This document shows positions 13,340-14,011 of a stretch of 20,653 nt of DNA, in pieces. Position 1 is the stretch's first letter, and the number at the start of each line of letters is the position of its first letter. Below the pieces are notes generated by a model. The model was not told the DNA's origin. It was given only the letters and a program-made list of their open reading frames with translations, and did no database searches. Origin of the DNA: a virus. The stretch is from positions 1 to 20,653 of IMG/VR virus record IMGVR_UViG_3300017727_004754; one strand, 5' to 3'. A program made the translations under genes and the position numbers.

Positions 13340-14011
13340 TTAAAATGGAGAGTCATCATCATCATCATCATCATCATCATCATCATCATCATCATCATCC
13401 TCATCCTCATCCTCATCCTCATCCTCATCCTCATCCTCCTCATCCTCATCCTCCTCATCCTCATCCTCATCTTCATCAGGCTCGGGTTTCTTACGGGACT
13501 TAGACTTCTTAGGCTTCGGGGTAGGAACCTCATCTTCCTCGTCATCATCCTCCTCGTCTTCGATATCCTCAGCTTCATCCCAACCTTCCGCGATGACCTC
13601 ACGGATGTTGATGTACTTTCTAGAGGTCTTACCTTTACCGGAGACGGACTCGGCTGTTCGGATACCAATGTCGCTACCTTTCATCTTTTTAAAGTGAGCG
13701 GCTTTAATATTGTCTGTGGTTATACCACAGGCATCGACGATAGACCCGAAGACGTCACCCGCAATACGAGCACGGGTTTCATCATTCTTATCCTTCGGAG
13801 CGATCTCGAAGAACTGCACGTAGTTGCTCCCGTTGCTGTGACGGAGGTCAACCTTTACGTGGTGACGCTTGCCTGACTTGTCGGCTTTCACCTGCTCGTA
13901 AGACACGTTGGTCACCTGATAGTTATGCTTCCCGATAGGAAGCTCGTTGTTTGTACCGCTGTTGACGGATCCGTAGTTGCTTCTCTTGAAGCTGAATGGT
14001 GTTTTATCCAT
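13340..14011 (-). CDS. Single-stranded DNA-binding protein with extreme acidic tail (DUF669-like)
   Basis: Residues 1-145 form a beta-rich domain (GKHNYQVTNVSYEQ, HHVKVDLRHSNGSNYVQFFEI) resembling phage DUF669/OB-fold single-strand binding proteins. A lysine-proline hinge (164-178) leads to a tail of about 42 residues of Glu and Asp that finishes with 16 consecutive Asp and the residues SPF. Bacterial SSB ends in an acidic tip closing with Pro-Phe, and T7 gp2.5 also ends in an acidic tail with terminal Phe; these tips recruit partner proteins. The gene sits in the recombination operon between the Sak4-like ATPase and RusA, as SSB genes often do. A 67-base gap precedes it and no clear ribosome site is visible. 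The SSB role is inferred from fold pattern, tail and neighbours. Confidence 0.8.
   Translation of the reverse strand: MDKTPFSFKRSNYGSVNSGTNNELPIGKHNYQVTNVSYEQVKADKSGKRHHVKVDLRHSNGSNYVQFFEIAPKDKNDETRARIAGDVFGSIVDACGITTDNIKAAHFKKMKGSDIGIRTAESVSGKGKTSRKYINIREVIAEGWDEAEDIEDEEDDDEEDEVPTPKPKKSKSRKKPEPDEDEDEDEEDEDEEDEDEDEDEDEDEDDDDDDDDDDDDDDDDSPF
13352..13477 (-). repeat. Triplet/hexamer microsatellite encoding the acidic SSB tail
   Basis: On the plus strand there are 15 consecutive ATC triplets at 13355-13399, followed by runs of the hexamer CCTCAT with small variations to about 13477. Read on the minus strand they encode 16 Asp (one GAC and 15 GAT codons) and then alternating Glu-Asp. Unit length is a multiple of three, so slippage would change tail length without breaking the frame. 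Confidence 0.95.

Follow-up and report, generated by a model that had tools for sequence, protein, structure and literature searches.

The DUF669-type single-stranded DNA-binding protein (SSB) of HK620, whose gene is located beside sak4, stimulates the Sak4 annealase, and its last six residues, NDYPPF, were described to be essential for the binding of Sak4 to SSB-coated single-stranded DNA (ssDNA) as well as for the stimulation of annealing (PMC5928155). Further DUF669 SSBs, represented by PHROG_6015, PHROG_2300, and PHROG_13350 (Seurat, Loki, and 033B), combine a low-complexity, often repeat-rich linker with a proline-aromatic tip, and are encoded in the order sak4, ssb, Cas4 exonuclease, and helicase, with a clamp and PolA following later. 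E. coli SSB possesses a disordered, neutral linker and an acidic Pro-Phe end for protein docking, the nine-residue tip MDFDDDIPF, while the acidic C-termini of the phage SSBs T4 gp32 and T7 gp2.5 act as competitors of DNA and as binding sites for replication partners.

The DNA analyzed here, referred to as the window, comprises the 20,653 bases of an IMG/VR virus record, and all coordinates are given as window positions (Table 1). The SSB encoded in the window shares with its HK620 counterpart the location of the gene beside sak4, a DUF669-type body, and an aromatic C-terminal tip with acidic residues nearby. However, HK620 SSB features three Asp residues within its last 13 positions, whereas the window protein ends with a run of 16 Asp originating from a triplet repeat, and the body of the latter is too divergent for the Pfam DUF669 family. 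The gene order, the low-complexity linker, and the proline-aromatic tip are also reminiscent of Seurat, Loki, and 033B, but the linkers of these phages are rich in Q, P, A, and G, near neutral, and mostly followed by PPW, in contrast to the almost pure Asp/Glu linker and the SPF tip of the window protein. E. coli SSB, T4 gp32, and T7 gp2.5 represent protein families other than that of the window SSB, and no triplet-repeat tract of this kind is known in T4 gp32 or T7 gp2.5. The window SSB is a divergent representative of a known kind, namely the Sak4-cognate phage SSBs, and its unusual part is the repeat-written acidic tail.

Table 1. Features of the SSB gene and its operon in the window.
Feature	Position	Strand	Basis
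SF2 helicase (ResIII), without acidic PF tip in the window phage	9701..11386	-	Family searches
Cas4-domain exonuclease	11383..12273	-	phrog_1990, E 1.2e-73
RusA-like resolvase, next operon gene	12962..13333	-	phrog_34, E 1.6e-9
SSB gene, 223 aa, DUF669-type, Sak4-linked, divergent	13340..14011	-	L275 homology, two-sequence profile, synteny
C-terminal tip Ser-Pro-Phe	13343..13351	-	Translation; family tip survey
Repeat-encoded Asp/Glu tract, residues 179-220	13352..13477	-	Repeat analysis and translation
15 perfect ATC triplets (minus-strand GAT codons)	13355..13399	+	Sequence
First acidic patch and K/P/S-rich linker segment, residues 146-178	13478..13576	-	Translation
Predicted OB-like ssDNA-binding body, residues 1-145	13577..14011	-	AlphaFold2 with alignment
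Sak4-like annealase (AAA_24, phrog_124), Lys-rich C-terminus KLKKKSTRIKKK	14079..14978	-	phrog_124, E 1.7e-34

Genomic context and identity of the SSB gene

On its upstream side, the SSB gene adjoins the sak4 gene. The ORF listed for the latter (14079-14978) is extended N-terminally by 50 residues that overlap the gene upstream of it, and, according to the alignment, the true start of Sak4 is likely Met51 (MPRVKSANDL). Downstream of the SSB gene, a RusA-like resolvase, an exonuclease, the Cas4 exonuclease, the helicase, a clamp, and PolA are encoded. A common gene order was recognized in about ten phages. The slot following sak4 is shared with phages of Vibrio, Escherichia, Roseobacter, Acinetobacter, Sphingomonas, and Klebsiella, in several of which the slot gene is annotated as SSB or DUF669. 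In Seurat, 033B, Loki, CRP-902, ZCSE2, MMDA13, and Klebsiella phages, this position is taken by a gene of the DUF669 or SSB type, and members of the family represent phrog SSBs.

Searches of the Pfam, PHROG, and NCBIfam collections resulted in no convincing family match for the SSB body. Compared directly with the DUF669 profile, the body achieved 14.4 bits, the best of 5,000 shuffles reaching 11.0 bits, and when the DUF669 alignment was compared with the window body alone by hhalign, the probability was weak (3%). Because this direct comparison is weak, the homology claim rests on the closest relative found, IMGVR_UViG_3300036985_005342 (hereafter L275), the Cas4 protein of which is 46% identical to that of the window. 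The SSB bodies of the window and L275 are 32% identical (E 2e-15), the L275 SSB reaches 27 bits against the DUF669 profile, and a profile built from both sequences recovered DUF669 proteins in 94 out of 94 matches (E ≤ 1) among 5,392 ORFs from the fetched loci. The link to L275 and the two-sequence profile therefore support membership in the DUF669 family, with the window protein being divergent.

In L275, the genes are arranged in the order phrog_2480 protein, HNH, sak4, SSB, nuclease-like ORF, and Cas4. The HNH endonuclease ORF (L275:3093-3548), located between the phrog_2480 gene and sak4, is absent in the window. Direct searches of viral contigs with the SSB, Sak4, and PolA proteins revealed neither close relatives nor a contig of the same species, and no relative was obtained by tblastn of the SSB against phages or by the genome-contig search; relatives were reached only via alignments of the neighboring genes. 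A further locus of the L275 lineage (L096) is truncated before the SSB gene and provides no second tail copy for comparison.

The designation as SSB, which had been deduced in the sequence-only reading, is supported by the L275 homology, the two-sequence profile, and the gene order. Together, these support the assignment of the gene as a putative Sak4-cognate SSB of the DUF669 kind. SSBs invisible to Pfam can be recognized in this way, namely from their operon slot and the logic of their tails.

Structure prediction with DUF669 rows in the alignment (AlphaFold2) resulted in a beta-rich body with a pLDDT of 71. This model matched DUF669 models (Foldseek, 7.5e-6), and its top match among solved structures was PrgE (Z 7.3), an ssDNA-binding OB protein (PMC11137577). 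The single-sequence model of the body was poor, showed no clear structural match, and did not reproduce the alignment-based fold, so that the predicted fold depends on the DUF669 rows in the alignment.

Repeat DNA and the acidic tail

The acidic stretch begins near residue 147 and is interrupted by a K/P/S-rich break at about residues 162–178. For the following 45 residues (179–223), the net charge amounts to −42, as compared to +4 for residues 1–150. It had been noted in the sequence-only reading that 15 ATC triplets and CCTCAT-type hexamers encode an Asp/Glu tail with 16 Asp residues before SPF, and both the sequence and its translation confirmed this description. In the translated minus-strand ORF, the terminal 16 Asp residues correspond to 15 GAT codons and one GAC codon, and are followed by SPF and the stop codon. 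The ATC run can also be written in the phase (TCA)15 (13353-13397, plus strand); 3' of it, CCTCAT / CCTCATCCT hexamer-type units extend to about position 13478, and the repeat received a TRF score of 154.

The longest period-3 tract spans 47 nt, whereas in none of 200 first-order Markov simulations of the window did such a tract exceed 13 nt. GAT accounts for 27 of the 28 Asp codons in the tract, its usage in the window being 51% (binomial p 2e-7), and none out of 20,000 synonymous recodings of the 42 residues matched the run of 15 GAT codons or the observed repeat length. Since both the repeat length and the codon purity are far beyond chance expectation, the DNA repeat is more than a mere consequence of the amino-acid sequence. 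At the nucleotide level, the tract is shown to be written by reiteration of GAT/GAG codons, recent enough for the codons to have stayed nearly pure.

The tail of the L275 SSB also represents an acidic repeat, consisting of EEEET/EEEES units with mixed GAA and GAG codons and a net charge of −18. Acidity is thus common to the clade, whereas the GAT microsatellite is not. Elsewhere, positions 926-967 of the window comprise a 21-bp unit perfectly duplicated in tandem within a 2165-aa ORF, which doubles the peptide PVSDKQE.

The C-terminal tip and its putative partner

To characterize the tip, 136 distinct DUF669 tails originating from sak4, Cas4, or PolA neighborhoods were surveyed. The pattern P-x(0,1)-[WF] was present within the last 25 residues of all 136 tails, as compared to 22% of the other ORFs; PPW occurred in 96 of the tails versus 1 out of 1,164 other ORFs, and four tails ended with PF. 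Further tips were PWE (L275), NDDIPF (CRP-810, a Roseobacter phage SSB), and DGDSNPF (L076). The window protein possesses a proline-aromatic C-terminal tip (SPF-stop), but neither its DDDSPF end nor the PWE of L275 corresponds to the DDDIPF-type motif terminating bacterial SSBs. Since SPF differs from both PPW and PWE, the tip itself changed between relatives, and the terminal Pro-Phe did not prove to be conserved in the closest relative or in most of the family.

Considering the family tip motif and the requirement for the tip in HK620, SPF is best interpreted as a member of the class of tips docking Sak4, in this case the annealase of the phage itself. From the previously proposed partner-binding tail, the binding function is retained, as the partner role of this tip class was demonstrated in HK620, whereas the host partners suggested at that time are weak candidates and the phage's own Sak4 is better supported. 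Sak4 can thus be offered as a specific partner, and the contact of the acidic tail with the Lys-rich C-terminus as a specific contact.

The gene probably encodes a Sak4-cognate SSB of a tailed phage with a divergent DUF669-type OB fold and a long, acidic, disordered tail, the tip of which docks Sak4 while the linker turns over. The SSB body would coat ssDNA, and the acidic tract would provide a spacer that is flexible and self-competing, like those of T4 gp32 and E. coli SSB. On ssDNA, the acidic-Ser-Pro-Phe tip would be freed and dock the Sak4 annealase encoded by the adjoining gene, and in this clade docking may be reinforced by charge pairing with the Lys-rich C-terminus of Sak4.

Alternatively, the acidic PF end could mimic the C-terminus of the host SSB and recruit RecO, RecG, ExoI, or PriA to the phage DNA. 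The acidic residues and the terminal Pro-Phe carboxylate fit the DDDIPF logic of bacterial SSBs, the related Roseobacter phage SSB mentioned above ends with NDDIPF, and the same-operon helicases of sister phages often feature SSB-like tips, one of them being exactly MDFDDDIPF. Nevertheless, capture of host proteins is considered unlikely, because L275 and most family members end with PWE and PPW, respectively, the Ile of IPF is replaced by Ser in the window, and the family already has a demonstrated phage partner, Sak4.

Ends resembling the SSB C-terminus do occur in sak4 modules on another protein, the helicase. Of 103 distinct operon SF2 helicases, 33 terminate in PF, closely preceded by acidic residues in 32 cases. 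The helicases of the three phages with a PF-ending SSB (window, L076, and L077) all lack this tip, which is present in 29 out of about 80 others, a distribution suggestive of mutual exclusion, but not significant. The C-terminal extensions of SF2 helicases (e.g., L015:4947-6953) often show SSB-like ends, such as DDDIPF, DEIPF, and EDIPF, and the helicase of Klebsiella phage vB_Kpn_K9PH25C2 terminates with PMDFDDDIPF, equaling the C-terminal nine residues of E. coli SSB. Acidic-xPF tips (SDDIPF, GEIPF, and TEDVAPF) were also encountered among the clamp-like ORFs L216 and L268 (355–357 aa) and the Sak4-like L236/L237.

Regarding docking to the phage's own Sak4, the window Sak4 ends with KIFWKLKKKSTRIKKK, corresponding to a charge of +8 in 15 residues, and the Sak4 end of L275 reaches +6, the 99th percentile of 104 sak4–ssb pairs being about +3. 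The window and L275, both encoding acidic-tailed SSBs, have the two most basic Sak4 ends, and of 11 further window proteins examined, none possesses a comparably basic C-terminus. Among the 104 pairs, with kinship ignored, linker charge and Sak4 C-terminal charge were weakly correlated (Spearman −0.29). The extreme Sak4 ends of the window and L275 suggest electrostatic docking of the acidic SSB tail with the basic Sak4 end, where the charge complementarity counts as a single evolutionary observation because two related phages only are concerned. A further-reaching version, in which both parts form a co-evolved charge pair and docking of the slippage-set Asp/Glu tract to the Lys-rich Sak4 tail replaces most of the PPW-tip contact of relatives, is regarded as doubtful; if true, the repeat number would set the annealing efficiency.

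It is likewise doubtful that the tail represents pure acidic filler, with no role beyond enhancing solubility and competing with ssDNA for the OB fold, and with a tip lacking a partner. The strong charge difference between tail and body is in favor of this explanation, as is the finding that the acidic C-terminal region of T4 gp32 is able to associate with the protein's own DNA site (PMC5892887), which also applies to E. coli SSB according to work cited in PMC5928155. However, a proline-aromatic tip was present in every family member examined, and it is functionally required in HK620.

Turnover of the linker

In counts that are descriptive only, since the controls include mechanical ORFs and the pairs are not independent, tandem repeats were detected in 43 out of 150 related SSB genes, all of them in the linker, versus 20 out of 601 control ORFs, and among 46 pairs sharing at least 90% identity in the body, the linker length differed in 19, as compared to three with a body indel. 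All 99 linker repeat periods were divisible by three. The gp32-like SSBs L183 and L198 (89% identical), belonging to an SSB family unrelated to that of the window, are exactly four Asp codons apart before LPF, the longer Asp tract being pure GAT.

The in-frame periods, the difference between linker and body, and the four-codon step support the frame-keeping slippage of the tail that had been proposed from the sequence, namely between relatives. Since repeats of this tail class are gained and lost in frame and the tip stays recognizable, the tip persists while the linker turns over. Most simply, the microsatellite is a by-product of linker turnover under weak length constraint rather than a dedicated switch. 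The locus thereby offers a testable case of a partner-binding tail evolving by whole-codon linker slippage with retention of the terminal docking class.

An adaptive length switch, i.e., a contingency-type locus with repeat numbers varying between virions and tuning DNA affinity or partner recruitment, appears improbable. The pure 15-triplet tract is of the slippage-prone kind, and in-frame differences in tail length are common between close relatives, but neutral turnover would equally give length drift with a kept tip, and the acidic tail of L275, with its mixed codons, contains no microsatellite. An assembly artefact or a wrong copy number in the metagenomic contig, to be considered for an IMG/VR virus record as tandem arrays are prone to mis-assembly, was judged very unlikely, because the 126-bp array is interrupted, the ORF and its SPF end are intact, and comparable tails arise independently in other contigs.

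Several SSB families feature poly-Asp stretches followed by an xPF terminus. Among the environmental gp32-like (PHROG_1192/224) and PHROG_15004 SSBs, L183, L188, and L199 resemble the window protein in featuring independent D7–D12 plus xPF ends, but they belong to other SSB families and mostly use mixed GAT/GAC codons. Furthermore, a DUF669 protein (L186:4165-4773; Pfam E 1.9e-4), encoded in a phage segment showing no sak4 within the 7.4 kb covered, combines a K/S-rich linker with a D12-LPF end.
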